Assembly (NCBI RefSeq): GCF_030848575.1
Contig: NZ_JAVDDX010000001.1
Span: forward strand, 1,426,001-1,490,000
Reading direction: 5' to 3'
From: Haloarcula sp. H-GB4
GTDB taxonomy: Archaea; Halobacteriota; Halobacteria; Halobacteriales; Haloarculaceae
DNA: 64,000 nucleotides
Shown here: in pieces, positions 14,890-42,365 of the stretch
How the letters are laid out: each line of letters starts with the position of its first letter
Position numbering within the stretch: the first letter of the stretch is position 1
Translations under genes and position numbers: made by a program
The notes under the pieces: model-generated
Seen by the model: only the letters and a program-made list of their open reading frames with translations
The model's database searches: none
Told to the model about the DNA's origin: nothing

Positions 14890-15636
14890 GGGCACTGTCT
14901 AGTTGAGCGAGTTTGAGAAACGAGGAGGCCGTAGCGAGAAGTGTCCATGCAACTCGCAGACCTCCTCAGAGAGACGTTAGATGAGGACAGCCAAGACGTT
15001 TGGGAGAATGAGCGCACCCCGACACCCGTCCGGCGATTTGGGGTGCGTCTCCATACTGCGGGGCTGTCGATCAGGGAGACGGTCGCTATCTTAGACCTGC
15101 TGGGTGTCGATCGCTCTCACGGGGCTGTCTGGCACTGGGTTCATACATTGTCTGAGGCTCAGAGCGACCCGCCGACGGCGGAGCCGTCGCGGGTCGCAGT
15201 CGACGAGAAACAAATTGAGGTTGACGGCGAAAAGAAGTGGTTGTACGCCGCTGTCGACACCGAGTCATAACTGCTGCTTGAAGTTGACGTGTTCAGCCGC
15301 CGCGGGACTGACCCCGCGGCGGCGTTCCTGCATCGACTCACGCAGAAACACGATGTCGCTGATTCAGTGTTTCTCGTTGATGCTGGCGGCTATCTGACTG
15401 CCCTCTCACGTCATGATTTGAGCGGTCGTCTCGACTACCGAATCCGGAACCACATTGAAAATTGGTTCCAGACTGTAACCATGCGCATCGACCGCTTTCA
15501 CTCCTTCTGGAGGGGCAGTCAATCAAGCGCGAAACAGTGGTTACGACGATTCAGACACCACTACAACCACGAACGGCCGAACCAAGCTCTTGACGGAAAA
15601 ACGCCAGCTGAGGAGATCCAGAACTAGACAGTGCCC
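14890..15636 (+). mobile_element. IS6-family element
   Basis: Terminal inverted repeat GGGCACTGTCTAGTT at 14890-14904 with its inverted copy at 15622-15636. Size (about 747 bases) and organisation fit the IS6/IS26 family, which includes several haloarchaeal ISH elements. It is inserted exactly beside the IS630-type terminus. No flanking duplication is evident, which is common when IS6 elements have recombined. Confidence 0.85.
14947..15627 (+). pseudogene. IS6-family transposase with an in-frame stop
   Basis: Start ATG 14947 (MQLADLLRETLDED). The zinc-finger-less archaeal IS6 layout is present: an N-terminal HTH (LSIRETVAILDLLGVDRSHG), the first Asp in RVAVDEKQIEV, the second in VFLVDAGGYL and a C-terminal YNHERPNQALDGKTPAEE. 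A TAA at 15268-15270 interrupts it after AAVDTES, and the frame continues unchanged behind the stop. Only one substitution would be needed to restore it, so the inactivation is recent. Confidence 0.85.
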
Positions 15637-17270: not shown

Positions 17271-17360
17271 AGTATAATTTACAATAAGATGTATTCTGAA
17301 CAAAGTATAAGCGTGACGGTTTATATTTGGAAATTTCATGTTTACTAGCACCGTACAGTA

Positions 17361-17409
17361 AGGTCGTGGCTGCGCGCGCAGCGAAGCGAGCACGGAGCGG
17401 AGGGTGGGG
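17361..17409. repeat. 49-base direct repeat, copy 1
   Basis: Identical over 49 bases with 32944-32992, in the same orientation. It begins AGGTCGTGGC, has the core GCGAAGCGAGCACGGAGCGG and ends GGGTGGGG. Copy 1 lies at the junction between the AT-rich glycan island and the GC-rich conjugation module. Copy 2 is just upstream of a stem-loop leader in the accessory block. Confidence 0.8.
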
Positions 17410-17971
17410 AGGTGGGGCCGCGGGGCTGTGGTCGAAACGAACGGGGAAGGGCCCCGCTAGTCGCTCGCCACCAGCCCGGCGACCGAGTCAGTTGGTGTGA
17501 GATGGGTTTCGCCCGCTTAGTACACCGTCTAGGAGTAGCGTGCGATCTTGTGTTTCGAGGTCGGCACGGTTTCGCTGACCGCCGTCACCAGGTCTGCCTA
17601 GGTGAGCATCTTCCCCGGCATGAGCCGACCGCCGCGTAGACTGTCGCCCGGCCACAGTCTTTCGTGCCGTGCCCGGACCGATGGGGACTGAATCGGCCAC
17701 GTCTGGCAACCGTTCGCCGACCGTCACTAGGTCTATCCCTGTTTCCACGTCGATGCCAGTCTCACCGGGGGCCGTCACGACCCGGTCTACCGCCCAATCG
17801 CGAACTACCGGCGCGTCCACGGAGGTCTGCAACCGGATCTTCCGTGCGGCTGCACACACTCGCTCACGACTGCTTTTTGTGAACTGGACTATCTGGGCCG
17901 GGGTTCGCTCGCACGCCCTGCTAACTCAAATTTTGCTCGGACCACATGGTCTAGAACACAACGTTCAACCG
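17410..17971. other. 562-base spacer without a supported gene
   Basis: GC-rich sequence between the repeat and the stop of the VirB4-like gene. A minus-strand frame (about 17488-17859) has a stretch with haloarchaeal acidic character (APGETGIDVETGIDLVTVGE) that then degrades into arginine-rich nonsense. This could be a decayed gene downstream in the operon. I see no RNA gene or promoter. Confidence 0.35.
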
Positions 17972-19903
17972 CTAATCTCCAATGACATCCACCTCGTACT
18001 CACTCGCTCGCACTCGAATCGGGAACCACCCCTCTTCATCGACTCCAAGCAGTGCTTCGGAGTAGCCATCAGCGCCATTCCCGGCTTTTGCCGATTGTAC
18101 CCAGTCGATCTCTCGGTCGCTGAGGTTGAACCACTCAGCCAGTTGCTGAGCCGCCTCATCAACGCGGTGGATGATCGTCATCGAGCAGAGGTTTGCAATC
18201 GTCCGGGCCTCCGGCGTGAGTGCGAACTCACCACCGGTCTGGGTGATGAACTGCAGGGAGATATCGTAATGCCGACTGTGACGGACAGCCGTTTCGAGGA
18301 AATCCAGCGAAGTTGCGTCATTCATCAGGTAGTGAGCTTCGTCGATAGCGAACGCCACTCGTTTGTCCGTCTGTTTGGCGCGTTCATACACCGCGTTGAA
18401 CAGCACCTGCATCATCAGACTCGTTTCGGACCGCCCGCGTGTCCCCTCCTCTTGGTGGAGATCCAGATACACGACATCGGATGTGATATCGAACTCAGTA
18501 GGTTCCGCAAGGTTCGCGAGGTCGCCACCGTCCCTGAAGGACGGACGCAGGTCGATCAACAGTGATTCTGCATCCGTCCGGACGTTCTCCTGTTCACCAG
18601 CTGTGACGTAGCCAAACGTCGCCGGATCGTCTAGCAGTTGTTCAAGAACGTCAATCACGTCACGGACGGTCGGTGATGACTGGTCGTGTGTCGCTGGGTC
18701 CCGGGTAATGCCCTGTTGCTCGTAGGCCTCTTGCACACACCGGCGAAGTGTCTGTTTTCGATCACCGAGGGGGTTCCCAGCTACCTGTTCGAAGAACGTC
18801 TCGAAGAACGTGAGGACCCACGCGATTTGCTCAGCCCATGGATCCAGATCCGGGACGGTATCTAACACAGTCGTCGGTGTGGGCTGTATCTCCAGTGGAT
18901 TGAACGACCGGGACCCGCCGACTGTGACACGCTCACCGCCGAGTGCGTCGTTGAGTGACGCAAACCCTTCAAGCGGATCCAGCATCACGAGTACCGTGTC
19001 CTGATCGTGCATCGCACGCCGGAGTAACTGCAGTTTCGTCGAGAAGGACTTGCCAGCGCCGAGTTTGCCAATCACCATCGCACAGTAGCCCGTTTCCCTG
19101 GCAAATCGATCGAGCAGGAGGGGACTCTCATTGAGTGCGTACGTCCCGTATTCGATGCCGTGTTCGGCCATCGCTCCCGAGACGAACGGAAACATTGCCC
19201 CCAGTGCGCCACCCAGCATCGGCGTCTGCGTATCCTGCTCAAGATTCATTTTGTCCACACCGACCGGGCTGGCTGAGATGAGTGCGTCCAGTTGTGCCCA
19301 TCGCGGCGACACTGGCGTTAGATTCGCTGGCGCTCGTCTGGCCGCGTTCGCAACCGTTTCCGACGTGACATCTTCGTTTGTCTTCCCTCGCTCGGTGAGA
19401 TACATCGACACGTCGAACGCTTCCATCGACGTGTTCCGAAGCACATCGTACAGTTCCTGGTAGTCCTGCAGGTCCTTGCTGACTCCCCGGGCGCCTGCAC
19501 GGCGCTTCTCCGAGAGATACTCCATTTCCGCTTCCAGATCCTCGATTTTGTTCTCCAGCGAATCCAGCGTCGTCTGCGTGTCTCTGGGTGTGATGTGTAT
19601 CGAGATGTCTGTCGTTCGTGTCTCGGCCGTCGAATACAGTTTCTCGAAGAGCCCATCCCGAGGTGCATCCGGAAACTGGCCAATCCAGAACGTGCGTGCC
19701 CACCGCTCACCGGTTCGTATCGTCGTCGGTGTTCGCTCAATTTCCGATGGTGCGACGAGTGACTGATGTATATCTGCAGGTGTATCCAACGACTGTTCAC
19801 TCTCCCTGTCGACGACATTGAATGCAGGCGTGTCGTCGCCAGAGGATTCCGCTCCTGATGCTGTGTCTGAGTTCCCTCGGAAGGGAAGCCAATCCCACGT
19901 CAT
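17972..19903 (-). CDS. VirB4-like conjugation ATPase
   Basis: 643 aa. After about 130 residues and a coiled coil (about residues 105-140) comes the motor domain: Walker A GKLGAGKSFS at residues 279-288, and Walker B VAFAIDEAH at residues 516-524, followed by the RHSRHYDISLQFITQ segment typical of VirB4/TraC. It would power assembly of a conjugative pilus and channel at the inner face of the membrane. The ATG overlaps the upstream gene's stop by four bases. The domain that VirB4 proteins usually have N-terminally appears to be partly encoded by that upstream gene. It is the last gene of the module's operon. Confidence 0.85.
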   Translation of the reverse strand: MTWDWLPFRGNSDTASGAESSGDDTPAFNVVDRESEQSLDTPADIHQSLVAPSEIERTPTTIRTGERWARTFWIGQFPDAPRDGLFEKLYSTAETRTTDISIHITPRDTQTTLDSLENKIEDLEAEMEYLSEKRRAGARGVSKDLQDYQELYDVLRNTSMEAFDVSMYLTERGKTNEDVTSETVANAARRAPANLTPVSPRWAQLDALISASPVGVDKMNLEQDTQTPMLGGALGAMFPFVSGAMAEHGIEYGTYALNESPLLLDRFARETGYCAMVIGKLGAGKSFSTKLQLLRRAMHDQDTVLVMLDPLEGFASLNDALGGERVTVGGSRSFNPLEIQPTPTTVLDTVPDLDPWAEQIAWVLTFFETFFEQVAGNPLGDRKQTLRRCVQEAYEQQGITRDPATHDQSSPTVRDVIDVLEQLLDDPATFGYVTAGEQENVRTDAESLLIDLRPSFRDGGDLANLAEPTEFDITSDVVYLDLHQEEGTRGRSETSLMMQVLFNAVYERAKQTDKRVAFAIDEAHYLMNDATSLDFLETAVRHSRHYDISLQFITQTGGEFALTPEARTIANLCSMTIIHRVDEAAQQLAEWFNLSDREIDWVQSAKAGNGADGYSEALLGVDEEGWFPIRVRASEYEVDVIGD

Positions 19904-20913
19904 GGGCGGTCCCCCACAAGCGGACGTGTCCGGAGTATCTCTTCGAAGTCACCGTATTCTAACGTCTGGCCGGCCCAGAACTCACTGATGACCTGTGCTC
20001 CATCGCTTGCATCGACGGTCATCGCTTCACACCCTTCGATATCGCGTATTCCGGACTGAACACGAGACAGTCGCTCTTCGAGTGTCGTGAACAGTGCCTC
20101 ACGCTGTCGTTCAGGTGCTGGGGCAGTCAGCGCACGCACGAACACGCCGAGTACCGGGATATCACTGAGCGTCGTCAGGATACTCTCCCGTTCGAACTGG
20201 ACTTCCTCGGGCGAGACCGTGACGATCACGTAGTGGTCTCGGATCGTCATCTGTCGGGCTGCCAGATCCTGTTCGTACCACTCGATATACCGCTCGATGA
20301 GTGTCCGGAGTTGTGCGTTTGCCTTTACGTCAGGGTCCTCCAGCCGCTCACGATAGTGATCGAGATATGTCTCGACTGGGAACGGCTGGGTTGTCGAGTA
20401 AATCTGTATCGGGAACGTAACGGCCGTATTCAGGAAGTCCTGAAAGCTATCGGCCGTTGTGGCCCATTCTTCGTCTGTTGCCAGTGCCATCGACGGTGGC
20501 GACACCCGAACAAGACCGACAACGGCGCCGTCTTGGCGCTTGATTGCGTTTGCATCCGGATACACGCGCTCAAGCTGGTGGTGATCCAGTGCCTCCGAAT
20601 GTGATTTCTCCGTTGCGGTCGTGTGGAATCGGATCATCGTCACCAGCCAGTCGAGGCTTGACGTGTACGCTGGTGTCACGTACACGAACACCGCGCCGAT
20701 ACAGATCGCGACTGCAACGATCGGGAGAAGTATCGCCTGGATCGTGTAGCCAGCAATCCGTGTCGACGACGGGACGACTAGCTGTACGAGCAAGATGACA
20801 GCAACGGCGGGCAACAGTACCACGACGGCATCGCCGAGGGTGTATGATCCAAGCAGCTTTGTCTCAGTACCAAGCGACTTCGGGATTCGTTTTGAAGGAG
20901 TTCTCTCAGCCAT
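19900..20913 (-). CDS. VirB3/PrgI-like membrane protein with VirB4-N-like domain
   Basis: 337 aa. Residues 20-85 hold two close membrane helices after a basic start, as in VirB3/PrgI. The remainder is soluble with a pattern (FQDFLNTAVTFPIQIYSTTQP, then VETYLDHYRERLEDPD) that resembles the N-terminal domain of VirB4/TraC. This suggests that in this archaeal system VirB3 is fused to the VirB4 N-terminus and the ATPase is a separate, overlapping gene. That is inference from order, topology and the overlap of stop and start; no catalytic motif is expected here. Confidence 0.65.
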   Translation of the reverse strand: MAERTPSKRIPKSLGTETKLLGSYTLGDAVVVLLPAVAVILLVQLVVPSSTRIAGYTIQAILLPIVAVAICIGAVFVYVTPAYTSSLDWLVTMIRFHTTATEKSHSEALDHHQLERVYPDANAIKRQDGAVVGLVRVSPPSMALATDEEWATTADSFQDFLNTAVTFPIQIYSTTQPFPVETYLDHYRERLEDPDVKANAQLRTLIERYIEWYEQDLAARQMTIRDHYVIVTVSPEEVQFERESILTTLSDIPVLGVFVRALTAPAPERQREALFTTLEERLSRVQSGIRDIEGCEAMTVDASDGAQVISEFWAGQTLEYGDFEEILRTRPLVGDRP

Positions 20914-20915
20914 TC

Positions 20916-22211
20916 TTAGTAGATGTAACGTGGGTTATCGTTATCGTCCGAGTCGCCATCCGACTCGTCAGTCTCGACGGACTCTGCGTCGGCCCCCGAC
21001 TCGTCAAACGGATCGGACTCGGGTGACTCGTTCTCGTGATCATTGTCTGGCGTGTCATCGTCGTCTCTATCCGTACTGGTTCTCGATTCGTCAGATTGAG
21101 CGGGATTGCTACGCTCGGTCGTCTCCGAGCTATCAGTCGTGGATGTACCGAGCCTGGAGCGAAGCGTTCGCTTCGTCTGGTCCACTTTACGGCCAACAGT
21201 GTGTGCGCTGGATGATCCCGATCCGAGCACTTCCTGGCCACTGGCTCTGATCGCAGACTGTCCCGTGAGCCCACGGCGGAGGTTCTTCAGGCCCAGCGTT
21301 CCGCGTTCACCTGCGTTCTCGACCGTTGCTTTGCGGTCGTGAGCACGCCGGCGTGAACTGTGCTGGGCCGCACGGTCAGCCATGAAGAACAGCGCACCGG
21401 CTTGCCAGAAGAGGACAAACGGGGCGATAACTGCGATGAGCGGCGTGATGATGGCCAGAAGCCACTGGCCGAATCCACCAATCGAAACCGTGACTGAATC
21501 GCCCAGCAACTCGCCTAGGCGAAACAGTACCGCGATGGGAACCGTCATGAACAGGAACGGGACATAAAAGCCCGCAAGTCGCGACATTAGCCGTGCAACC
21601 GGTGCAAACGGGCCGACACCCGGAACCCAGAACACGATAACCAGTGGCATCAGGAGGACATACAGGTATAGCGCCATCTGCCGGACGAGATAGATAAGCG
21701 CGAGGACGAGGAAGATCGTCAGATCGAGTGTCGCAGCAAGCGTCAATCCCGAGAGCCCCATCGCACCGAACGATACTGTCTCGAACAGGCCGATACTGTC
21801 GAGACTCGGCACAATAAAATCGACCAGCCCGTCGATGAATCGCAGTGACAGTGCGGCCATCCACCACCACGACAGGATGCCAAGCAGGCCGGCAAATGCC
21901 CGCTTTTTGAGCTTCGTTCGATGGTACCCGCTGAACAGGTGGCTTGTCGATTCTAGAAAGATGATCACGCCAAGCGAGAGTCCCCACAGCAGGAGTGTCA
22001 GCGGGACCATCGTATCCCAGTAGTACGTGTAAATCGACGGCCAGCCGCCGTTTGACGGTTGACTGAACACTGCATCCGGACGTGGCGTCGTCACGATCAG
22101 GTCGATGAGTGCCCCAACGTTGTCACCGACGAACCCGAACACCGGATCGACCAGCTTCTTCAGGAACCGCTCCAGTGCGTCGACGAATACGTCCCCCAGT
22201 GACTGTGTCAT
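20916..22211 (-). CDS. VirB6/TrbL-like polytopic channel protein with acidic tail
   Basis: 431 aa. Residues about 60-290 contain six to seven membrane helices. The C-terminal third is disordered and very acidic (runs of DDDD, DESD and NDNP), as in many haloarchaeal secreted or cytosolic tails. Position between a surface protein and the VirB3/VirB4 genes matches VirB6/TrbL, the channel component. Start at 22211; the stop is two bases before the next start, so the genes are tightly coupled. Confidence 0.7.
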   Translation of the reverse strand: MTQSLGDVFVDALERFLKKLVDPVFGFVGDNVGALIDLIVTTPRPDAVFSQPSNGGWPSIYTYYWDTMVPLTLLLWGLSLGVIIFLESTSHLFSGYHRTKLKKRAFAGLLGILSWWWMAALSLRFIDGLVDFIVPSLDSIGLFETVSFGAMGLSGLTLAATLDLTIFLVLALIYLVRQMALYLYVLLMPLVIVFWVPGVGPFAPVARLMSRLAGFYVPFLFMTVPIAVLFRLGELLGDSVTVSIGGFGQWLLAIITPLIAVIAPFVLFWQAGALFFMADRAAQHSSRRRAHDRKATVENAGERGTLGLKNLRRGLTGQSAIRASGQEVLGSGSSSAHTVGRKVDQTKRTLRSRLGTSTTDSSETTERSNPAQSDESRTSTDRDDDDTPDNDHENESPESDPFDESGADAESVETDESDGDSDDNDNPRYIY

Positions 22212-22296
22212 ATCTTTCTCGCGGTGCTGTTGGTTGTCCGTCGGTTCCGTGTCGACCTGCGCTGTCTTGTCCTGTCCAACAACAGGGTGTGTCTCA

Positions 22297-23988
22297 TTAC
22301 AGATTCCTCCATGGTGGCCAGAATCCCCATCCGGTAATGCGATCGATCAACAAGCCAGCCAGCAGGAGTGTGCCGACCTGAACCCCAATCGTGAACAGGA
22401 GGTGGACGTACCGCAAGACCGTTCCACCGGTCGCCACAGTCGTTGTGTCACCCACGTAGCCAGGGATCGTCCGCCACCAGTCATCTGGCCGGTACGTCGC
22501 AGTGATAGCATTCCCCTGCCGTGGGATCGTCGTTGTGACCGTGCCGTTTGCAGTCGTGTTGACTCGCTTCCCAGCAAGCTGGATATAGCCGTCACGAGTG
22601 ACCGTTTCGATAGGCGCACCCGTTGTAGCGTCTCTGAGCGTCACTGTGACCGTCACGGTGTCTGCAGTCGTGTTCTGGACAGTGAGACGCAGATCACTCC
22701 GGTTTACCGAGAGATTCGACGTCGTATCTGGTGACAGACGTGTCGGTGACCGCCGAACGAGTCCAATTGCTTGAACCGGCTGGTCAGTGTCTTCCGGTGG
22801 CGCTCTGGCAGCGATCCCGAAACTACCTTCGTAGGTTCCGGTTATGCTATCCAGTGCAATCGACGAGTCAAGGGTAGGTGCCCGGAGCGTACGACCGTAC
22901 GAATCAAGGACTGTAATCTCACGGTGTGCATCCTGTGTGGTCCCAGTTCGGATCGGATACGCGTACACTTTGACCGGATGTACTGGTGAGTGGTCTGTTA
23001 GTGTCGTCTCGCCGTCCGTTTCGGTGAGTGTATCCCACCCGGTATCCCGGGCGACGTAGAATCGCCAGATACCACGAATCTCTCCGGATGGCAACTGGAG
23101 TCCATACCAGGGCTGGCTCCGGAAGGCCACAACACCCAGATCTCCGTTCGGGTATGTCGTTCGATACCCAGAGAGCGTTGGGTTGTACACGCTCACCTGC
23201 CGCTTTTGTTCAACCGTGATCGTCTCGGTGTGCGTCTCTACCCGCTGTGTCCAGTAGTCTCGACAGGTTCTGTTCCCGTTGACGGGCTTGCAGACAGTTT
23301 TCTCTTCGTAGATGGTTTCTGTCAGCTCTACTGTGGCTGTTGCCTGAAGCACAAGCGGCTGGCTCCCAGAGACGTTTCGGGGTTGGTTCCGGTATGTGAG
23401 ACGGACGACATTGTCCGTCGTCGTGTTCGCAACTGTCTCACCGTCCATCCGTAACGTCACGTTCTCTATCGCGTGAGCGACAACGTTCCACTCAGTCCGG
23501 CGTGTCGGTGCATCTGTCCCGGCCGGCACGGCAACTCGGTAGTCGATTGTTCCAAGCACCGTTCCGTTCGGGGCGACGTACAACGGCTGCCGGCGTTCCG
23601 ATACCATGGCTTTCGTCGACGGTGTGACCCCGGCGATTGCGACACCCACGTCTTTGAGATATGTGCCGTTAGTCCGAGTTGCTCCAGTCGGATGGATCGC
23701 TCGCGACGCATTCGTTGCGGGCATCTCGGCAATATCGCGCCGATTCCATGTTTCAGCCGCTTCAGGCGGCGCATCAAGTGGCACGTCACTCGTGTGTCTG
23801 AGCGTCTCCGATGCTGATGCATTGGCAGTAGCAACGGTCTGTCGCTCTTCGTCACCGCTCCACAGATCATGGAATTCCGATTCATTCACACCATGGTCGG
23901 CCGTTTCCGGTGGATGTCCCGCAACCGGTAGTGCCGTGCCGATGATGGCCCAGAGGCAGGCGATTCTGAACAGCGTGTTTCGAGCCAT
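22297..23988 (-). CDS. Secreted membrane-anchored protein of the conjugation module
   Basis: 563 aa from the ATG at 23988, chosen because MARNTLFRIACLWAIIGTALPVAG is a clean signal peptide. The frame open farther upstream reads through the neighbouring pilin gene and is not signal-like. The exported part is beta-rich with many NxT/NxS sites and one Cys pair region (KTVCKPVNGNRTCRDYW). A C-terminal helix (VHLLFTIGVQVGTLLLAGLL) anchors it. It begins four bases after the pilin-like gene ends. It may be a surface adhesin or outer part of the conjugation apparatus. I recognise no named family. Confidence 0.7.
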   Translation of the reverse strand: MARNTLFRIACLWAIIGTALPVAGHPPETADHGVNESEFHDLWSGDEERQTVATANASASETLRHTSDVPLDAPPEAAETWNRRDIAEMPATNASRAIHPTGATRTNGTYLKDVGVAIAGVTPSTKAMVSERRQPLYVAPNGTVLGTIDYRVAVPAGTDAPTRRTEWNVVAHAIENVTLRMDGETVANTTTDNVVRLTYRNQPRNVSGSQPLVLQATATVELTETIYEEKTVCKPVNGNRTCRDYWTQRVETHTETITVEQKRQVSVYNPTLSGYRTTYPNGDLGVVAFRSQPWYGLQLPSGEIRGIWRFYVARDTGWDTLTETDGETTLTDHSPVHPVKVYAYPIRTGTTQDAHREITVLDSYGRTLRAPTLDSSIALDSITGTYEGSFGIAARAPPEDTDQPVQAIGLVRRSPTRLSPDTTSNLSVNRSDLRLTVQNTTADTVTVTVTLRDATTGAPIETVTRDGYIQLAGKRVNTTANGTVTTTIPRQGNAITATYRPDDWWRTIPGYVGDTTTVATGGTVLRYVHLLFTIGVQVGTLLLAGLLIDRITGWGFWPPWRNL

Positions 23989-23992
23989 CTGC

Positions 23993-24406
23993 TCAGAAAC
24001 TGCAACTGGTCCCACCTGAGACAACTGACGACAGAAGGAACTGGACGATCGTCGTCGCAAGCGGTGCAACGATGACGCCCCACACCAACCCCTGTGTTCG
24101 GATCTGTTTGAGTTCCATCTTCGTGTCTGCTTGTCGCACCATTGGTGTTGCAACCGCCGCACCAAGGGCGAGCGTCCCACCGACCAGCGGTCCGCCGAAC
24201 TGGATCAGCGTGAAGATGTTCTTGATCGTCACTGCCATATCTGTCTGACAGAATTCCTCGCCGATACTCTCTGCAGCAGCTGGCTCAACACATAGCAACC
24301 CCAGTGCTATCACTCCAACCAAGACCTGCCGACCGTACTGTTTCAGCAGTGCGATACGATTCTGTTCCGATGCCGAACTATCGGCACTAGATGTGACCCC
24401 CATCAT
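23993..24406 (-). CDS. VirB2-like pilin candidate
   Basis: 137 aa. The layout is a basic N-terminus with a first hydrophobic segment ending AVEPAAA-like (here CVEPAAAESIGEEF), which could be a signal peptide, then two hydrophobic helices separated by a short charged loop (ATPMVRQADTKMELKQIRTQG). Size and topology fit VirB2/TrbC major pilins. It is the first gene of the probable operon running down to VirB4. Assignment is by topology and position only. Confidence 0.6.
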   Translation of the reverse strand: MMGVTSSADSSASEQNRIALLKQYGRQVLVGVIALGLLCVEPAAAESIGEEFCQTDMAVTIKNIFTLIQFGGPLVGGTLALGAAVATPMVRQADTKMELKQIRTQGLVWGVIVAPLATTIVQFLLSSVVSGGTSCSF

Positions 24407-24490
24407 TCCTATCTCACTGCCACTGTGTTAGTGAACTCCCCCCGGAACCCACTGTTTTCAGTGGCTAATCCAATATAGCAAACACTTCGA

Positions 24491-24502
24491 TTTAAATTTA
24501 AC
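24491..24502 (-). promoter_or_regulatory. Probable promoter of the conjugation operon
   Basis: Read on the minus strand, TTAAATTTAAA is a strong TATA-like element in an otherwise GC-rich region. It is about 85 bases upstream of the pilin-like start at 24406. It lies in the only sizeable AT-rich gap of this module (24407-24535), directly after the SWIM gene. Confidence 0.5.
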
Positions 24503-24535
24503 TATTTTTGGTGGAGTATTAATTTTCCGACGAGG

Positions 24536-24988
24536 TTACGAAAAGTCTCGCCGACCTCGTTGATAGCAGTCCCAACAGGGAAATTCCGGAAGACAGTCCT
24601 CGCACTCGTCAGCGTTGGAGTCGTCAGTAAGGCGGTTTGTGCCATCTGTGGGAGCCCCCTCCCCAGTGTCCGAATCCAATGAGGATCCACCGTCGCCTCT
24701 GAGACGGGCCCGAACCTGAGAGCTGCGGCGTGTTTGGTTCCCTTTTGGCCGTCGGATAGCGATTGCGACTCGGTGTTTGCACGCGCCGTCAAATCGTTCG
24801 TCGGCTGGACAGGTACACGCTTGGGGAACTGACCCATCCATCCTGACGAAATACTCGTGATCGGCCGGGTTCGCATGACTTTCGTTGCGAATCTGGAACC
24901 CGCTTCCGACTGGCCTGATGTCGAACCGTTCGTACTGTGCGCGCTTTGCGACTCGCGTCGAAAACGTGAGTACTTGGAGTGGGTGCAT
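24536..24988 (-). CDS. SWIM zinc-finger protein
   Basis: 150 aa from the ATG at 24988. A longer frame to 25045 would read through the stem-loop and is rejected. The SWIM motif CxCx(n)CxH is clear: ACTCPADERFDGACKHRVAIA (about residues 58-77). The tail is low-complexity with a second Cys cluster (CEDCLPEFPCWDC). SWIM domains bind nucleic acid or protein partners; in haloarchaea they are frequent on plasmids. It lies directly upstream of the conjugation operon, so a regulatory role is plausible but unproven. It is preceded by a shared stem-loop (25013-25036). Confidence 0.75.
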   Translation of the reverse strand: MHPLQVLTFSTRVAKRAQYERFDIRPVGSGFQIRNESHANPADHEYFVRMDGSVPQACTCPADERFDGACKHRVAIAIRRPKGNQTRRSSQVRARLRGDGGSSLDSDTGEGAPTDGTNRLTDDSNADECEDCLPEFPCWDCYQRGRRDFS

Positions 24989-25012
24989 AATCGCTCTCGC
25001 GGCGCACTGCAA

Positions 25013-25036
25013 TGCGCCCGCACCCCTCCGGGCGCA
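25013..25036 (-). promoter_or_regulatory. Stem-loop leader SL1 (SWIM gene)
   Basis: Read on the minus strand: TTTTTG, then a 7-base stem TGCGCCC/GGGCGCA enclosing the 10-base loop GGAGGGGTGC, then 24 bases to the start codon at 24988. Member of a six-copy family with similar loops and different, still-paired stems. Confidence 0.7.
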
Positions 25037-25303
25037 CAAAAACACTGCAGAGAGGCATTACTGTCTTGCCTGTGTGGTAAGCTGGGGTCTACCCCAACGA
25101 GACTATTTTACTCACCGACATCCCCCGCCACACGAAGGTACATTTGCTCGTCGACGATGCAGGACAATTAGATGGTGTGTGGCGACGCAACACGTTCGCG
25201 TCTCTCTTCGCATCGCCGATCATCACAGCACGTCGACTGAGACCGTGGTCCTGATCGGGACCCGCACTGAACCCTAGACTGGGTCACGGTGGGCTGGACG
25301 GAA

Positions 25304-26452: not shown

Positions 26453-26602
26453 TCACGGAAGCTTGTAGACAGCAATACCGGTATGCCCACACTGGGGACA
26501 GGCATCCATCTCGGTGTCCCCTGTGATAGTTTTTCCACACCGCCGGCACTCTCGATACACTGTCGTGCGCTTGAACACCCTCCGAAGCCAGTCACCGATC
26601 AT
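26453..26602 (-). CDS. 49-aa zinc-ribbon protein coupled to TFB
   Basis: Starts at ATG 26602, overlapping the TGA of the TFB gene (ATGA). After a basic helical start (MIGDWLRRVFKRTTVY) there are two CxxC knuckles, CRRC and CPQC, separated by about 15 residues: a minimal rubredoxin or zinc-ribbon fold. It ends VYKLP. Small zinc ribbons often partner with transcription factors, and the strict overlap with TFB suggests co-production. Its function is not known. Confidence 0.7.
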   Translation of the reverse strand: MIGDWLRRVFKRTTVYRECRRCGKTITGDTEMDACPQCGHTGIAVYKLP

Positions 26603-27537
26603 TCGTCGTCTGTGAGGAAGGCGGTGAGTCGGTCACGATGATTCCGGACCGTTGCCGCCGACACGTCTGCAGCATCAGCAAGTGCTAGTTGTGTCGGTGG
26701 ATCCGCCATGGACGATGCGGCAACCGCGAGACAGGCCGCCCCAAAGCCTGCAGGATGGGTTCCACTGCTCACCCCCTCGTCGTGGGCACGGGCGGCGAAC
26801 TCCCGTGCTCGCTGTTCGACCTGGGCAGGCAGTTCGAACTCGTCGGCGACCGACGGAATGAACGCGATCGGGGATTGCGGTGGCACGGGCAGTGCAAGTT
26901 TCCTGTTGAGCGTCCGGTAGCCGTTCTCGACGCATCCTACACCGACTGGTGTAACGGCTGCGACCTCCGCCAGAGTTCGTGTCGTTTCGTTCAGTCGGCA
27001 AATCGCGTACACGCTCGCGGCCGCGATGGACTCGATTGACCGACCGATGAGAAGGTCATTGTCCTGTGCAGTCCGGAACAGGGAACTCGCCTGTTCGCGA
27101 AGCGAATCGGCTAACTCCAGCTCCGAGGCGATCCGTGCAATCTCACTGAGTCCAGTGGCGAGATTCCGTTCGGCTTTCGAGCGCCACCGTGCTCTTGAGT
27201 GCTCACGACGGAGCCGATTGAGCTGACGCTGTTTCTTTGCTGGAAGCGCATTCCCGTTTGCATCCGTCTTGTGACCGATTTCCGTTGAGAGCCCTCGATC
27301 GTGCCGTGCCTCTGTGAGTGGCGCACCTGTTCGTGCTTTCGACGTATCGTCATCGGGGAATGTCCGAGGACCACGTCGGTCAAGTCGGCAACCCTCGATG
27401 ACGACGGCACAGTCCTGACAGGTGATTTCTCCACCGTCCGTTTCGAGGGCCCCACCACACTCCGGGCAGGTATCCGCAGCAATCGTTCGACCACTCGATT
27501 CATCGAAGCCACGTTCGTAGATATCGCTGGAAGCCAT
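26599..27537 (-). CDS. tfb: Transcription initiation factor IIB (TFB) paralogue
   Basis: 312 aa. The N-terminal zinc ribbon is CPECGG and CQDC (residues 24-43). A B-finger-like linker follows (FPDDDTSKARTGAPLTEARHDRGLSTEIG). Two cyclin repeats of about 90 residues each end with a helix-turn-helix (LADAADVSAATVRNHRD). TFB recruits RNA polymerase to TBP-bound promoters; haloarchaea have several paralogues with partly different promoter choice. Its presence among transfer genes suggests an element-encoded initiation factor that could favour element promoters. It is preceded by stem-loop SL2 and followed by an overlapping zinc-ribbon gene. Confidence 0.9.
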   Translation of the reverse strand: MASSDIYERGFDESSGRTIAADTCPECGGALETDGGEITCQDCAVVIEGCRLDRRGPRTFPDDDTSKARTGAPLTEARHDRGLSTEIGHKTDANGNALPAKKQRQLNRLRREHSRARWRSKAERNLATGLSEIARIASELELADSLREQASSLFRTAQDNDLLIGRSIESIAAASVYAICRLNETTRTLAEVAAVTPVGVGCVENGYRTLNRKLALPVPPQSPIAFIPSVADEFELPAQVEQRAREFAARAHDEGVSSGTHPAGFGAACLAVAASSMADPPTQLALADAADVSAATVRNHRDRLTAFLTDDE

Positions 27538-27607: not shown

Positions 27608-27940
27608 TTACTGATCTCGATGGCCAGCGAAGACTGCCATTCGACGTACTGCCCTTTCGGTCACACTGTCTGTAACCCGAGCAACTGCTTGTTCGATATT
27701 GTTGTTTCTGAGTGAGATGACTGCCCACGGTGCAACGAACGACTCCCGGTCGAGTCGTCCCTCAACGAACGCATCCGCCAATGATATCGATTCATCGTAC
27801 TCTTTTGTCGAAATTCCCACTGCGATGTACTGCTCACCAGCAAACGGATGGGACTCATCGCTCACGATGAGATACGGTCGATGTGGTGTGTCCCCAGATG
27901 GATCCCCCGCTACGACGACAGTGCCTCGTCGGTACATCAC
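27608..27940 (-). CDS. PemK/MazF-like toxin
   Basis: 110 aa. The N-terminus YRRGTVVVAGDPSGDTPHRPYLIVSD matches the first strands of the PemK/MazF barrel, with conserved Arg-Gly near the start and Pro in the RPYL turn. Members of this family cut mRNA. Its start overlaps the upstream HTH gene by four bases (ATGA), the usual order antitoxin then toxin. Divergent members exist that are not ribonucleases, so activity is inference. Confidence 0.65.
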   Translation of the reverse strand: MMYRRGTVVVAGDPSGDTPHRPYLIVSDESHPFAGEQYIAVGISTKEYDESISLADAFVEGRLDRESFVAPWAVISLRNNNIEQAVARVTDSVTERAVRRMAVFAGHRDQ

Positions 27941-28299
27941 TCGTCAGTCTGCTCAGTATCGAGATCAGGAAGGTCCGAATCCCAATCCGAGTTCTGGTCG
28001 TAATAGTCTCCCTCGAACTGGTCCGCGACAGCTTGTAGTCCGATTACACTGGCCGTATGGGCATCGTATGCTTCGACGTTGATCGCCCAGTACTTGCCTT
28101 TGTGCCGGATGAGCCCCCGTTGTTCGAGTCGGCGAAGCGTCGTGCCGACGCTCCCACGGGGAATATCAAGTTCCTCGGCAAGCTCACTCGCCCGGAACCC
28201 GAGTTTGTGGTGGCTGGCGAGAAACTCGAGGATGCGACGTCCGTTAGTGTCCTCGTCTGGCAAGTCGTTCGGATGGTAACTCTCAAAATCAACAGGCAT
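27937..28299 (-). CDS. Winged-helix (MarR-like) putative antitoxin
   Basis: 120 aa. A central winged helix (FRASELAEELDIPRGSVGTTLRRLEQRGLIRHKG) is followed by a helical and very acidic tail rich in Asp. Such tails in haloarchaeal antitoxins bind basic toxins. The overlap with the PemK-like gene and position first in the pair suggest autoregulation. The upstream spacer 28300-28408 carries no stem-loop. Confidence 0.65.
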   Translation of the reverse strand: MPVDFESYHPNDLPDEDTNGRRILEFLASHHKLGFRASELAEELDIPRGSVGTTLRRLEQRGLIRHKGKYWAINVEAYDAHTASVIGLQAVADQFEGDYYDQNSDWDSDLPDLDTEQTDE

Positions 28300-28408
28300 T
28301 GTAATGATATGTAACAGTATGTCATCAAACGTAATAACGATGCAGGCTGAGACAGACAGATGAGTTTAGTCTCGAATCGGTGATGGATTCGTTTCTATGA
28401 GACCGTGT

Positions 28409-29350
28409 TCACCTGCGTTGGCACTCTTCGACGGCTTCGATTACCTCGGTCGCGGTTCGACTGATTCGACCGAGGCGGTCCAGAATCGTGTCAGGTTCTT
28501 CGGACTCCCATGCGGCGAGGTACAGGGCTGACCCGCTCATGTCTAGTCCGAAGTGTCGGCCCACGACGTAGGCGACCGATTCGGCTTCGACCTCTCGTTT
28601 CGTCCGCTCAGGTTTGTCTGTGACGCCCTTATGAAGTAATGCGTGGGCGTATTCATGGACAAGGACCGCAGCCATCGCGGCAGCACTCTCCCGAGCTTTG
28701 ATCTCAATGGCAGCGTCGTACTCTTCTTCATCGTCGACCGAGCGACAGATGCCTTCGGCAGCGCCGTGTTGCCACTCCTCTGCATCAACGACAGCTACCT
28801 GCACCCCCAGCGTGTCCGCTGCTCCAGTGACTGCTGGAAACAGATCTGTGGCGTCTCCGCGTGCGTCCGTGTCCAGTTCTGGCAGGGGTTCGCCCTCAGT
28901 CTGTGAGATATCAAAGACGGGGACGGGTTTGAACGCCACAGGCCCCTCCGACCACTCGTCGGGTGGCGTCTCGTCGTACTCACAGTCAGTGTCAGCGTGG
29001 TAGTTGGGGGAGTTGCCACAGCCCGGACACTGCTTGGCGATGATGGGTGCCCAGATCCAGATGGCCTGCTCACCGTCTTGGACCTGTCTGTCGAACTCCT
29101 CCTGCCACGTCCGGTAGCCGGCGACTTTCGTCGCCTCGGGACACTGCCGGGCGATTAACAGTGTGTTCCGATACGAATAATCGTGGAAGCGACTCTGGAC
29201 GTCAAGCCATGCCTGGAACTGCTCGCTTGCCTTTGCGTCGTCGACCTGTTCGGTCAGGTCCTGTGCCCACTGTTCGATCGTGCGATGCATCTCATCGGTG
29301 CGAGTGTCACTGGAGGGAAACTCCACTCGCGAGGTCGTGTTCGAAGCCAT
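28409..29350 (-). CDS. ArdC-like antirestriction metalloprotease
   Basis: 313 aa from the ATG at 29350. The N-terminal half matches the ArdC ssDNA-binding domain (YSYRNTLLIARQCPEATKVA, then GYRTWQEEF), followed by a Cys-rich insert. The C-terminal half is a zincin with HEYAHALLH (about residues 237-245) and the third ligand Glu in EVEAESVAYVV. ArdC proteins protect incoming plasmid DNA from restriction during conjugation. This supports transfer as the function of the whole block. It carries stem-loop SL3 upstream. Confidence 0.8.
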   Translation of the reverse strand: MASNTTSRVEFPSSDTRTDEMHRTIEQWAQDLTEQVDDAKASEQFQAWLDVQSRFHDYSYRNTLLIARQCPEATKVAGYRTWQEEFDRQVQDGEQAIWIWAPIIAKQCPGCGNSPNYHADTDCEYDETPPDEWSEGPVAFKPVPVFDISQTEGEPLPELDTDARGDATDLFPAVTGAADTLGVQVAVVDAEEWQHGAAEGICRSVDDEEEYDAAIEIKARESAAAMAAVLVHEYAHALLHKGVTDKPERTKREVEAESVAYVVGRHFGLDMSGSALYLAAWESEEPDTILDRLGRISRTATEVIEAVEECQRR

Positions 29351-29377
29351 TTCGAAACCCGCGAGGCACTGTGTGTG

Positions 29378-29398
29378 GCCCCGCACCCCTCAGGGGGC
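29378..29398 (-). promoter_or_regulatory. Stem-loop leader SL3 (ArdC gene)
   Basis: Minus strand: TTTTTG, then stem GCCCC/GGGGC with loop CTGAGGGGTGC, then 27 bases to the start at 29350. Same loop and spacing as SL2. Confidence 0.7.
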
Positions 29399-29476
29399 AA
29401 AAACAACCCGCAGGAGTGACGTTGCAGGACAGAGTGCTGAATGATAGCAGTCTGGTTTCGTTTGGGGTCCCGTAAG

Positions 29477-29806
29477 CTACTCTGAGGAAATCTGCCGTGG
29501 GAGGACCTGCCCCCAAATGTGCTTTTCGAGTAGGCGGACTGTCAGCGGGCGTTCTACCTCGATACAGCGGGAGAGCCGCGGATAGCCAAACCGAACCGCT
29601 GCCGCATCGTGCCAGTGTGTCGGTTCCGGGGCAGGATCGACTTCGACAGTACAGGTCGAACAGAGACCGCGGCCGCCACAGTTGGCGTACTGCGAGACAG
29701 TCCCGTATACAAGGGAGCCGCGCTGCAGTAGCGCATCTCGGAGGGTGGTACCCCGTTCAACCTCGATAGTCGTCTTTTCATCACAGTGTCCGAGTGAACA
29801 TTTTAT
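29477..29806 (-). pseudogene. 2Fe-2S ferredoxin-like gene without a normal start codon
   Basis: A minus-strand frame open from about 29809 to the TAG at 29477-29479. It encodes TTIEVERGTTLRDALLQRG, then the cluster-binding motif CGGRGLCSTC (CX5CX2C) and a fourth Cys in LSRCIEVE: a complete ferredoxin fold of about 100 residues. No ATG, GTG or TTG lies in frame before the conserved core; the first possible codon is an ATA at 29806 or lies beyond an upstream TGA. Either it is a freshly broken gene or an unusual start is used. Its 5' end overlaps the promoter region of the divergent toxin-antitoxin pair. Confidence 0.6.
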
Positions 29807-29865
29807 GCTTCAATCGAGCCAGCACAATTCATATAATGTATGCAGGAGTATGTTCGGACGAAGCC

Positions 29866-30192
29866 ATGCCCCGGACCACCGCCACCATTCCCGACGATCT
29901 CACTGATCTCATGGAGGGCGCTATCAAAGCAGGCATTTTCGAGAACAAGAGCGACGCGGTCCGTCACGTCTTACGCGAATACTTCGATGAACACGAGAAT
30001 GCACGAATCGCTGCCGCGGTGTCACTATACGAGGACGAAGCCATAACTCTCGGGACTGCTGCTCGGCTTGCAGGTATGAACCGCTTCGAGATGCGGGATG
30101 TCCTCCGCGAAGAGGGGATCGAACTTCGCTTTGGCCCCGAAGACATGGACGCTGCGCGTGACGAGATCGATGTCGCTCGGAATCTTGAATGA
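29866..30192 (+). CDS. UPF0175-type antitoxin with RHH domain
   Basis: 108 aa from ATG 29866 (MPRTTATIPDDLTDLMEGA). Residues 1-45 form a ribbon-helix-helix DNA-binding domain. Residues 55-95 are the UPF0175 segment (ALYEDEAIT-like, here SLYEDEAITLGTAARLAGM). In archaea UPF0175 genes sit before DUF3368 PIN toxins, as here, and the start of the next gene overlaps its stop. TATA-like ATATAATG lies about 33 bases upstream. Confidence 0.8.
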   Translation: MPRTTATIPDDLTDLMEGAIKAGIFENKSDAVRHVLREYFDEHENARIAAAVSLYEDEAITLGTAARLAGMNRFEMRDVLREEGIELRFGPEDMDAARDEIDVARNLE

Positions 30193-30695
30193 CATCGGCA
30201 CCACGTAATGCAATTGTTCTCAACACTACCGTGCTGTCGAACTTCGCACACGTCCAGCGCGTCGAACTGCTCGAAACCCTTCCTCGACTCGTCACTGTCC
30301 CTGCGGTCCGGACCGAACTCGAAGACGGTGTTGAAACCCATTCCTACTTAACAAACGCACTGACCGCCCTTGACGCGGATATTCCGGTTGCCGAACTGTC
30401 ACCACAAGCCCAGACACTGGAGGCGACCTTCCTGGAACGACTCGACCCAGGTGAGGCACAGGCCGTAGCCGTTGCAGAGACCGTCGATGGGACCGTCATC
30501 ACTGACGACGGCGATGCTCGTACAACCACGATCCAACGAGACATCAGATTAACCGGATCGATCGGCCTCCTCGTCCGTTTTGTCGAGAGCGATCTGATCT
30601 CCGCGGCGGCTGCAGATACGTATCTCAAACGCTGGATCGACGAAGCCGGGTTCCACTCGCCCGCTCGTGATTTTGAGACGTTCCTCACGGACTGA
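30189..30695 (+). CDS. PIN-domain (DUF3368) toxin
   Basis: 168 aa. The PIN acidic residues are present in degenerate form: NTTVLSNFAH near the N-terminus has Asn in place of the first Asp, then PAVRTELEDG, LDPGEAQAVAVAE and VITDDGDAR supply Glu and the Asp cluster. DUF3368 proteins are VapC-like ribonucleases. The first Asp to Asn change may weaken metal binding. Overlap of ATGA with the UPF0175 gene marks a toxin-antitoxin unit, the only plus-strand genes in this block. Confidence 0.75.
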   Translation: MTSAPRNAIVLNTTVLSNFAHVQRVELLETLPRLVTVPAVRTELEDGVETHSYLTNALTALDADIPVAELSPQAQTLEATFLERLDPGEAQAVAVAETVDGTVITDDGDARTTTIQRDIRLTGSIGLLVRFVESDLISAAAADTYLKRWIDEAGFHSPARDFETFLTD

Positions 30696-32943: not shown

Positions 32944-32992
32944 AGGTCGTGGCTGCGCGCGCAGCGAAGCGAGCACGGAGCGGAGGGTGGGG
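32944..32992. repeat. 49-base direct repeat, copy 2
   Basis: Identical to 17361-17409. It lies immediately upstream (minus-strand sense) of stem-loop SL6, so it may be part of that gene's upstream region. Confidence 0.8.
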
Positions 32993-33045
32993 CGGTGGGG
33001 TCTGGGCCGGTCTGGCAAATAGCAAAAAAGAGAGGCCTTAGCCCG

Positions 33046-37130: not shown

Positions 37131-37524
37131 AACCGAGTAGATCGAACGAGTGGAAAAGCGGGTACAGAGTACCTCCGGAAGCTTCAAACGAACTCCGCGG
37201 TAGTAACGGACCGATAGAATCCTGGAAAGGGGACACAATCCTTTGTTGGCTGCCCGTTTGCTCGCACTCTTTATTCCTTGGTTACTGAGATACAACGGAG
37301 TCAGTGTGTCCACTGGACTGGGCGCTCAGCCCTGCTGCTTCACGACTCTCGGACAGAGTATCCGTAGGTTTCGATCCGATACTAATATTGCCACGTGATT
37401 CCTCAGCCACCCATCATACATTTTTAAACGTTATACATATGTCTTCCCTGTGTTTCGGCCTGTCAGTCCGGGTTCTCGTAGTTCGTGGTAACGATTAACC
37501 TACAATGGTCAATTGGGCAAGGTG
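37131..37524. other. Spacer with the acetone-carboxylase promoter
   Basis: 394 bases without a gene. The clearest signal is the A/T block TTTTTAAA at 37421-37428, a TATA-like element about 97 bases before the ATG at 37525, which implies a leader of around 70 bases. No operator-like inverted repeat was seen. Confidence 0.45.
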
Positions 37525-39696
37525 ATGGCAAGTTCAGAAGACGATCCCTCGGACCACCACAACGCAGAGATCCTGTCAATCGACGCTGGCGGGACGATGA
37601 CAGATACGTTCCTCATGGACTCCAACGGTGAGTTCACTGTTGGAAAAGCAAAGACCACACCGGATGACGAATCGCGGGGGTTCATCAAGTCCTCACAAGA
37701 TGCCCTTGAGGACTGGGGCCTGACTGTCAAGGAGGGGTTCCCGAATCTCGTGTCGACAGTGTACTCGGGCACCGCAATGCTGAATCGGCTCGTCGAACGC
37801 GAGAGTGAGGTCGATGTGGGGATTCTCATTACCGGCGGGATGGAAGACACACTCCGAATGGGGCGTGGCCGGCAGTCGTACACCGGCTACTCATATTCGG
37901 ATCGGCTCCACGTCAACACCCACAAACACCCCGAGCCATTAATCCCGCGGAACCAGATCCGTGGCGTCAGAGAGCGTATTGACGTCAAAGGGAACACACT
38001 GGTTCCGCTGTACGAAGACGATGTTCGAGAGGGGGTCAATGACCTGCTCGACCAGGATGTCGACCACATCGTCGTGATGTACCTCCATTCCTACAAAAAC
38101 GGTGACCACGAACACCGGACCCAGGAGATAGCCGAGGAGATCATCGACGAACGCGAGATGGACACGACGGTGATGCTGTCGAGCGAATACTACCCGACAC
38201 TGAAAGAATCGGAGCGGCTGAACACCGTCACTGCAGAAGCGTTCGCCGCTGAGCCATCCAGAGATCAGCTAACGAATATTCAAGACTCCGTTGACGAACA
38301 GGGCGGGAACGTCGGCGTACGTGTGATGGCGAGCCACGGCGGGACTATCGATATCCACGCCAACGAACTAGCCCGGACGCTCATTTCGGGCCCGATCGGC
38401 GGGATGATCGGTGCCAACTATTTCGGGGAAAAACTCGACTACGAGAATCTGGTATGTACCGACATCGGTGGGACCAGCTTCGACATGGGCATCATCATCG
38501 GGAACGACTGGCAGATCGACTACAGCCCGGAGATGGCCCGTCTCCTCTTATCGCTGCCGATGGTCAACATGGAGAGTGTCGGGGCGGGCACGGGCAGCTA
38601 CGTGCGGGTTAACCCGACGTTCGACAAAATCGAACTGGGCCCTGAGAGCGCCGGCGACCAGGTCGGCGTCAGCGCGGTCGAAACGGATGTCGAGACGGTA
38701 ACCGTAACAGACTGTCACGTCGCGATGGGCTGGATCAACCCCGAGAACTTCCTCGGCGGAGACATGCCTATCGACCGCGACGTGGCCGAGCGAGAAATCA
38801 AAGAACAAATCGCCGACCCGCTCGGCATGGGTGTCTACGAAGCCGCACAGGGTGTCATCGACATTCTGGAGAGTAAGCTCCGGAACGACCTCGAAGCGGT
38901 CGTGACCGGTGAAGGGTACGCACCGTCGAATTTCAAGTGTCTCTCGTACGGTGGAGGCGGCCCTGTCCACACCGCCGGCTACACCAAAGACCTGGGTTTC
39001 GACGAAGTGCTCATCCCCGAGTGGGCGGCTGGCTTTTCGGCGTTTGGCTGTGGCGCTGCCGACTACGAGTACCGGTACGACCAGACGACGAGTATCGACG
39101 TCGATCCGGACCTCTCGATGGAGGAAGCGGCCGAAACCGCCGGCCAGGAACTCACCGAGGTCTGGAAAAACCTCGAACAGAAAGTCGAAGCCGAGTTCGA
39201 GAACAGCAATATCGGCCGGAGCGAGATAGAGTTCCAGTACAACATTCTCGGACAGTATCAGGGACAGCTCAACAGCATCGACATTGAGTCACCGGTCAGC
39301 CGCGTCGACACCCCGGAGAAGCTCGAACGGCTGCTGGACACCTTTGAGGAGGAATACCGGCGCACGTACTCCGAGGAGGCCCGGTCTCCGGAGCTCGGGC
39401 ACACTGTCACGCAGGCCTCGGTCCGCGGCGTCCGGGACGTTGTCAAGCCGGAGATCCCCACGGAGGAAACCCAGGGTCCGGAACCGCCCGAGGAGGCGTT
39501 CAAAGAGACCCGGGAGGCGTACTGGGATGGCGAGTGGATGGAGACCGAGATTTACGACCTCCACGCGCTCCAGCCAGGGAATGAACTCACTGGCCCCGCC
39601 GTGATGGAGGGTGCCGCGACGACCTACGCGCTCCCGCCGGACTGTGAGACCTACCTCGACGAGCACCGTGTCCACCACCTGACCAGGACCGAGTAA
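37525..39696 (+). CDS. acxA: Acetone carboxylase beta-type subunit (HyuA-like ATPase)
   Basis: 723 aa from ATG 37525; a TTG at 37513 is possible but less likely. The N-terminal Hydant_A_N region has the phosphate-binding loop ILSIDAGGTMTDTFLMD (about residues 16-32). The middle has a second actin-like loop, VCTDIGGTSFDMGI (about residues 311-324). The C-terminal region is typical of hydantoinase A/acetone carboxylase beta. This subunit phosphorylates acetone and bicarbonate at ATP cost. The gene order beta, alpha, gamma that follows, with a true gamma subunit, favours acetone carboxylase over N-methylhydantoinase or acetophenone carboxylase. Confidence 0.8.
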   Translation: MASSEDDPSDHHNAEILSIDAGGTMTDTFLMDSNGEFTVGKAKTTPDDESRGFIKSSQDALEDWGLTVKEGFPNLVSTVYSGTAMLNRLVERESEVDVGILITGGMEDTLRMGRGRQSYTGYSYSDRLHVNTHKHPEPLIPRNQIRGVRERIDVKGNTLVPLYEDDVREGVNDLLDQDVDHIVVMYLHSYKNGDHEHRTQEIAEEIIDEREMDTTVMLSSEYYPTLKESERLNTVTAEAFAAEPSRDQLTNIQDSVDEQGGNVGVRVMASHGGTIDIHANELARTLISGPIGGMIGANYFGEKLDYENLVCTDIGGTSFDMGIIIGNDWQIDYSPEMARLLLSLPMVNMESVGAGTGSYVRVNPTFDKIELGPESAGDQVGVSAVETDVETVTVTDCHVAMGWINPENFLGGDMPIDRDVAEREIKEQIADPLGMGVYEAAQGVIDILESKLRNDLEAVVTGEGYAPSNFKCLSYGGGGPVHTAGYTKDLGFDEVLIPEWAAGFSAFGCGAADYEYRYDQTTSIDVDPDLSMEEAAETAGQELTEVWKNLEQKVEAEFENSNIGRSEIEFQYNILGQYQGQLNSIDIESPVSRVDTPEKLERLLDTFEEEYRRTYSEEARSPELGHTVTQASVRGVRDVVKPEIPTEETQGPEPPEEAFKETREAYWDGEWMETEIYDLHALQPGNELTGPAVMEGAATTYALPPDCETYLDEHRVHHLTRTE

Positions 39697-39825
39697 GAGC
39701 GGTATCCCGCTCTTGTACAGCGATGCATCTATCCCGTCGCTCGGGTCCACTCCGGCGGTGAGGTAGGTGCACTGTACGAGCCCGCATCTGGCTCCGATCA
39801 GATGCCCGCAATACAACACCACATC

Positions 39826-42348: not shown

Positions 42349-42365
42349 TACAGAGGTGAACACAC

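Follow-up and report, generated by a model that had tools for sequence, protein, structure and literature searches.

In type IV secretion systems (T4SS) of the MPF_FATA type, the N-terminal part of VirB4 is encoded apart from the ATPase in the pGO1 subclass, whose genes we take to be TrsC, TrsD and TrsE. The same separation is found in the haloarchaeal locus described here. The analysed DNA, called the window in the following, comprises 64,000 nucleotides (bases 1426001-1490000 of contig C1) of the 4.19-Mb genome of Haloarcula sp. H-GB4. Positions 17972-24406 hold a real conjugation-type module that is well conserved and has its VirB4 split in two; it is a variation on a known machine and has parallels in bacteria. 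We consider it likely that this operon represents the mating-pore module of an integrative element of the conjugative type in haloarchaea, extending from ~17.93 to 56-56.9 kb (Table 1). Haloarchaeal elements with VirB4 and VirD4 homologues have already been published, according to the accessible text of PMC9259645 and PMC2841640. That known relaxases are absent beside archaeal VirB4 and type IV coupling proteins (T4CP) was pointed out in the accessible parts of two further papers, one of 2011 (PMC3158045) and one of 2025 (PMC12857230); in these papers, archaeal DNA movement without a recognisable relaxase is an open question.

All five minus-strand open reading frames (ORFs) named in the preliminary description were present at their places. 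The ATPase gene indeed starts inside the stop of the gene for the 337-aa protein (its ATG overlaps TGA, with 4 nt shared), and the one large gap lies upstream of the pilin gene, as claimed. Judging from its AT-rich run, this gap is likely the promoter region of the operon; a scan for sigma-70-type promoters, a consensus type that does not apply to archaea, returned chance numbers only. Matches of the ATPase, the 337-aa protein and the VirB6-like protein to T4SS families bear out the reading of the operon as a conjugation-type T4SS module.

The ATPase matched the NCBIfam profile CD1110 VirB4-like (E 4e-47, profile positions 187-724 of 752) and the VirB4-like PDB entry 4ag5 (E 7e-17). A Walker A motif lies at approximately residues 279-286, and invariant columns were seen in the alignment. 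With 160.8 bits, the protein scored below the curated CD1110 equivalog cut-off of 325; among the components of an MPF_FATA-like T4SS, the 643-aa ORF corresponds to the VirB4 ATPase. Because the CD1110 match begins only at profile position 187, this ORF lacks the first part of the VirB4 family, and the missing part is contained within the 337-aa ORF.

The predicted VirB4-N assignment of the 337-aa protein is the strongest result of the analysis. Its residues 116-237 matched TrsD (NF041427, E 6e-9) with 36 bits against a curated cut-off of 200; it is not filed as a TrsD member, and we describe it as a protein that resembles TrsD, shares the VirB4-N fold by its predicted structure and probably works like TrsD. 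An AF2 model was built from 29 sequences (pLDDT 67). The top 14 Foldseek matches of this model were all R388 T4SS/VirB4 entries (best E 0.008), and VIA-align superposed model residues 103-334 on residues 13-216 of the R388 TrwK/VirB4 chain with Z 10.6 (rmsd 7.4 A over 181 residues), compared with Z 6.3 for the best non-VirB4 row, an ESX-5 chain, and at most 5.3 for the others. Neither the 337-aa protein nor its 50-row profile retrieved a VirB4 chain from the PDB by sequence search, and a profile comparison of its family with Lacticaseibacillus VirB4 and Paenibacillus PrgI found nothing. The first ~100 residues are likely VirB3-like, as they contain two helices (26-46 and 58-79) and match PrgI weakly (E 0.046; PrgI was also matched in only one of nine homologues). 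Of the earlier proposal that VirB3 is fused here to the N-terminal part of VirB4, the VirB4-N half therefore stands, while the VirB3 half is less firm.

As for the remaining operon products, the VirB6-like protein matched Pfam TrbL_3 (PF19590, E 9.9e-20) over the cut-off and had five hydrophobic helices in a simple hydropathy scan; among the T4SS components, it corresponds to the VirB6/TrbL pore. The pilin gave a weak match to NCBIfam VirB2 (PRK13857, E 0.006); in its family of 24 aligned proteins, eight matched TrbC/VIRB2 and three T4SS_pilin (best 3.6e-9), the window member matching neither. The ORF of the secreted protein would span 22297-24180 if its first GTG was used, yet the protein most likely starts at 23988 and not at 24180, because its relatives begin at the equivalent internal methionine (ATG). 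It begins with a hydrophobic stretch and carries a helix near its C-terminus (530-548), and its AF2 model (pLDDT 77.7) consists of an all-beta ectodomain followed by this helix. Neither Foldseek nor VIA-align produced a clear fold match for it, and no family was assigned. The Foldseek matches, Fusexin1 included (TM-score ~0.10), were rejected for their very low TM-scores, and the VIA-align matches, with Z up to 9.6, for an rmsd of >20 A, values that beta proteins of several domains typically give. No VirB8 turned up in general profile scans of the five operon proteins, which included no VirB8-directed search.

Table 1. Positions of the operon, its neighbours and the edges of the putative element in the window
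Feature	Position	Strand	Remarks
Left edge of element	17917-17931		41-55 bp past ATPase stop
VirB4-type ATPase, without first VirB4 N-terminal subdomain	17972-19903	-	643 aa
Likely VirB3-like head + predicted VirB4 N-terminal domain	19900-20913	-	337 aa
VirB6/TrbL-like polytopic membrane protein, acidic tail	20916-22211	-	431 aa
Secreted, C-terminally anchored beta-rich protein; putative surface component	22297-23988	-	563 aa
VirB2-like pilin, two hydrophobic helices	23993-24406	-	137 aa
Sole long gap, up to next minus-strand ORF	24407-24535	-	AT-rich run
SWIM zinc-finger protein, frequent neighbour	24536-25045	-	Pfam SWIM E 2e-5
TFB-type transcription factor, frequent neighbour	26599-27537	-	Pfam TFIIB E 8e-33
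ArdC-N/M78-type protein, antirestriction-like, element gene	28409-29386	-	Pfam ArdcN E 4e-5
VirD4/TraG-like coupling protein, other end of element	51946-55524	+	1192 aa
Zone holding right edge	56011-56906		congeners resume at 56896-56908, 3' end of UPF0179 gene

Conservation of the operon was examined in 45 related loci chosen by their ATPase. Of these, 38 came from contigs of genomes, and the window was one of seven from other sources; some loci are not independent of each other, and as some end at contig ends, the counts are minima. The 337-aa protein was present in 44 of these loci, the VirB6-like and the secreted protein in 43 each and the pilin in 41, so the five-gene arrangement is more than chance. 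Less regular companions were the SWIM protein (20 loci), TFB (15) and a VirD4-like protein (14). A lipoprotein gene stands between the genes for the secreted and the VirB6-like protein in 35 of the 45. On a broader scale, the 337-aa protein was matched in 189 of 293 genomes sampled from the order, in open frames of three kinds: split and close to the one in the window (~340 aa), further split (~350-430 aa) and fused (~1,020-1,220 aa). In a sample of the phylum, 54 of 392 genomes matched it, including five from beyond this order; the frames had 266-346 aa. The TrsD profile, in turn, matched 43 of 286 genomes at E <= 0.001, none over the cut-off. Nearly all plasmid records with the 337-aa protein (139/140) were typed as non-mobilizable by MOB-suite; standard plasmid typing misses this protein family.

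The split form is common in haloarchaea: the loci examined contained 71 split pairs, compared with 26 fused proteins. Fused proteins (~1,020-1,210 aa) from other haloarchaeal loci align to both window chains, in order, and thus the two chains equal one protein. Contigs C5, C6 and C7 of the host itself, which are plasmids, carry fused VirB3-VirB4 proteins of 1,084-1,088 aa, and one could suppose on this ground that the split is a recent accident (a frameshift or an assembly error) that befell a fused gene in this strain. We give this explanation practically no credit, for besides the prevalence of split pairs, the 4-nt overlap of the two genes is repeated in 45 of the 71, and an ATPase tree with 51 split and 26 fused haloarchaeal rows (77 in total) requires only two changes of state. 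For this tree, 20 of the 71 split rows were removed beforehand as near-identical, partial or interrupted, and all 26 fused rows were kept. A strain-specific frameshift is thus refuted by the conserved gene junction. As the four bacterial rows sit on very long branches and the root of the tree is not fixed, either fusion or fission may have occurred. In three pairs (L121, L129 and L134), 1,374 bp separate the two genes with both frames open; from this it follows that either the overlap is dispensable or these copies are inactive. On host contig C5, an extra VirB4-N-like match was observed at 24786-25154, within a 384-aa frame.

The coupling protein did not appear in the preliminary description. 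It lies 31 kb from the operon in divergent orientation, has no further homologue in the host genome and matched TrwB_AAD_bind (E 1.7e-5), in line with the VirD4 coupling protein of an integrative conjugative element. Its homologues occur in 24 of 25 genomes with split systems. Among 31 T4SS copies, 26 had a coupling protein on the same contig within 150 kb and five had none on the contig. In 22 of the 26 paired copies it was encoded on the other strand, 9.8-113 kb from the operon on the side of its promoter; in the other four it was adjacent, co-directional and 34% identical. The window belongs to the divergent type, and its coupling protein is part of the same system as the operon. As the divergent pairing is recurrent and the window fits it, the five genes make up one half of the system, and the second half is located near the far edge. 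A separate observation was made in genome G116, where a coupling-protein fragment (L222 808-1059, minus strand) lies tail to tail with the ATPase gene, 39 bp beyond its stop; it may be the trace of a circular form or of a tandem copy.

The edges of the element were set by comparison with stretches from 13 congeners. In four of them (G125, G083, G157 and G298) the island is absent: their sequence follows window positions -11183..-10680 (negative values lie before its first base), continues with 23-25 bp and then runs from 56906 onward. With -10680 joined to 56906, approximately 67 kb are therefore absent there. The match of G131 with the window breaks off at 17917 and is taken up again at 56902, and that of G198 (H. 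marismortui) covers 17931-22964 and 55499-56011 and continues from 56902. These match limits place the left edge at 17917-17931 and the right edge at ~56.0-56.9 kb. The comparison revealed a hot spot where the UPF0179 gene (56892-57341) has its 3' end. The stretch 17355-17917 is common to two congeners at the same site. A 57-bp direct repeat (17361-17417 and 32944-33000, 98% identical, 15.6 kb apart), of which only these two copies and a 22-bp partial one elsewhere were found in the genome, was considered as a pair of att sites and discarded, being a misfit with the congener-defined edges.

The absence of an adjacent relaxase or integrase, stated earlier, holds for the families searched. Relaxase family PF03432 matched only host contigs C5 and C7, both bearing fused systems, and gave no match in the window, PF03389 had no match in the host genome, and a phmmer search with the C5 relaxase matched only L137 and L139 and none of the split loci searched. 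Integrase family PF00589, which does not cover serine integrases, had ten matches in the host genome and none inside the window. Of the marks of an integrative conjugative element, the coupling protein was thus found, and neither a relaxase nor an integrase with att repeats was detected by these searches.

Several observations weigh against the reading of the operon as the mating-pore module of an integrative conjugative-type element. Besides the missing relaxase and integrase in the window and the lack of a C5-type relaxase beside split loci, no att direct repeat was detected (no shared repeat of >=10 nt at the edges tested); at the edges of ten other divergent elements, the best repeats were of 12-14 nt, the chance level in flanks of 5-6 kb. 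The sister chromosomal copy in G198 is decayed and has lost the pilin gene, part of the gene for the secreted protein and the span up to 55499, and that in G271, also decayed, keeps only 17347-20121. The lipoprotein gene is absent from the window operon, the confidence of the 337-aa model is moderate, and the pilin and VirB3 assignments are weak at the sequence level. The operon might instead be a domesticated or stranded remnant that no longer transfers the element and serves a Ced/Ted-like DNA import, builds a surface pilus or is simply decaying. The decayed copies in two sister species, the chromosomal location, the lost lipoprotein gene and the failure to find an integrase or relaxase in the families tried would suit such a remnant, which we nevertheless regard as rather unlikely: the five ORFs and the coupling protein are all open, other loci without the lipoprotein gene (among them the nearest relatives, L099 and L101) retain the operon, and the distribution is patchy and plasmid-linked. 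A VirB3/VirB4-N chain, moreover, is not described for Ced/Ted in the accessible text of PMC9905601.

Data on mobility come from related systems. Across Haloarcula (H. marismortui, H. amylovorans and, with 16.6 kb, H. japonica), Halorussus (H. marinus and H. halobius) and Halosegnis (H. rubeus), stretches of 12.1-21.95 kb with the pNG600-type split system show 99.99-100% identity; in Halonotius and Halorientalis the identity is ~94%. Recent transfer would be the simplest reading of these sequences, with cross-contamination of some draft assemblies as another possibility. The window type is less similar between species: its identity is 77% with both Haloarcula salina and Haloarcula mannanilytica, 91% with the chromosomal copy of Haloarcula marismortui and 96% with a fragment from Haloarcula japonica. 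It had been asked at the outset whether the operon is widespread in non-transmissible loci; instead, the split form was found on many plasmids, and the pNG600 type as near-identical stretches in different genera. The latter, together with the VirD4-like coupling ATPase in the same element, also speaks against a system that secretes protein or builds an adhesion pilus and moves no DNA. We think this improbable, even if the prominent beta-rich surface protein and the failure of the families tried to reveal a known relaxase would be in keeping with it.

In the reading as a mating-pore module, the observed gene order, the homologies, the predicted VirB4-N fold, the conserved geometry and the absence of the element from congeners can be accommodated as follows. 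The pilin would be exported and assemble into a VirB2-like filament or channel tip, and the VirB6-like protein would form the membrane pore. The 337-aa protein would anchor the motor, with its VirB3-like helices in the membrane and its VirB4-N domain docking the separate VirB4 ATPase, so that both together would do the work of one VirB3-VirB4 polypeptide; the overlapping start and stop codons may couple their translation. The beta-rich anchored protein would act at the surface, probably touching the S-layer or the partner cell. Finally, the VirD4-like protein from the other end of the element would feed DNA, prepared without a known relaxase, to the pore. A broader and more speculative idea, which we advance only tentatively, is that haloarchaeal integrative elements conjugating without a canonical relaxase are widespread, and that their split-VirB4 operon and VirD4-like motor, placed at opposite edges and both pointing outward, would be brought together only when the element is excised as a circle, lying tail to tail on either side of the attachment site, such elements coexisting in one host with fused-VirB4 plasmids, two of them with a PF03432 relaxase. 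The window offers a compact and intact candidate system in the Haloarcula group, with motor, pore, pilin and coupling protein named, and its split VirB4 provides a natural means to study VirB3/VirB4-N docking separately from the ATPase. Of more interest are the pairing of the operon with a coupling protein at the other edge and the fact that no known relaxase was found.

Further genes were noted within and beside the element. The ArdC-N/M78-type protein has homologues near the operon in G227 and G137, and beside it, at 27608-30695, toxin-antitoxin-like pairs are located: an HTH regulator with a 110-aa partner and a UPF0175 protein with a 168-aa partner. We take the 110-aa partner to be PemK-like and the 168-aa partner to be a PIN-type protein, neither of which gave a profile match. 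Between the two transfer halves, at 37513-48811 on the plus strand, the cargo comprises a hydantoinase A/B pair, an AMP-binding enzyme, an HTH_10 regulator and a second hydantoinase B. To the left of the element, the window has a low G+C content (0.41-0.55) at 1-16 kb, and a frame at 14941-15627 (plus strand), presumably of a transposase and likewise without a profile match, is broken by a stop codon.

Among known systems, as far as the open PubMed Central literature searched was accessible, we found no description of a fused VirB3/VirB4-N chain with a separate ATPase, nor of the divergent T4SS/T4CP layout. Ced/Ted share the trio of VirB2-, VirB6- and VirB4-like proteins with the window but are DNA import systems of Sulfolobales and Thermoproteales, with no VirB3/VirB4-N chain in the text mentioned above (PMC9905601). 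The Fsx1-bearing integrated haloarchaeal elements, compared by the accessible part of their description (PMC9259645), have VirB4 and TraG/VirD4 homologues as the window does, and differ in their fusexin and XerC/D. Haloarcula marismortui pNG600 and its kin have the split genes in the same order and an ATPase 67% identical; unlike the window, they possess the lipoprotein gene, and their coupling protein is adjacent, co-directional and only 34% identical to that of the window. Exonuclease VII subunits (xseA/xseB) are encoded shortly before the pilin gene in pNG600-type elements (L198 4081-5319, L199 4081-5319).

In the preliminary description, this way of splitting VirB4 was regarded as different from bacterial type IV systems. 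This cannot be upheld, as TrsD is a named VirB4-N family and bacterial plasmids show the split as well. A plasmid of Lactiplantibacillus plantarum PC518 encodes the PrgI-like protein, TrsD and the ATPase in three genes, whereas the PrgI-like part is fused to VirB4-N in the window. In Paenibacillus, PrgI and the ATPase occur together with a 331-aa protein. The same layout as in the window is seen in Parageobacillus toebii pDSM14590, where the pilin is followed by a 348-aa protein with two helices and TrsD and then by a separate 614-aa VirB4 ATPase. This plasmid differs from the window in being bacterial, typed as conjugative with a MOBQ relaxase and equipped with an M23-family peptidase gene, and the sequence similarity is remote. 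Its 348-aa protein has helices at 44-62 and 73-91 and a TrsD match at 127-309 (E 3e-21), and could be aligned by profile with the family of the 337-aa protein at E 1.8e-5.

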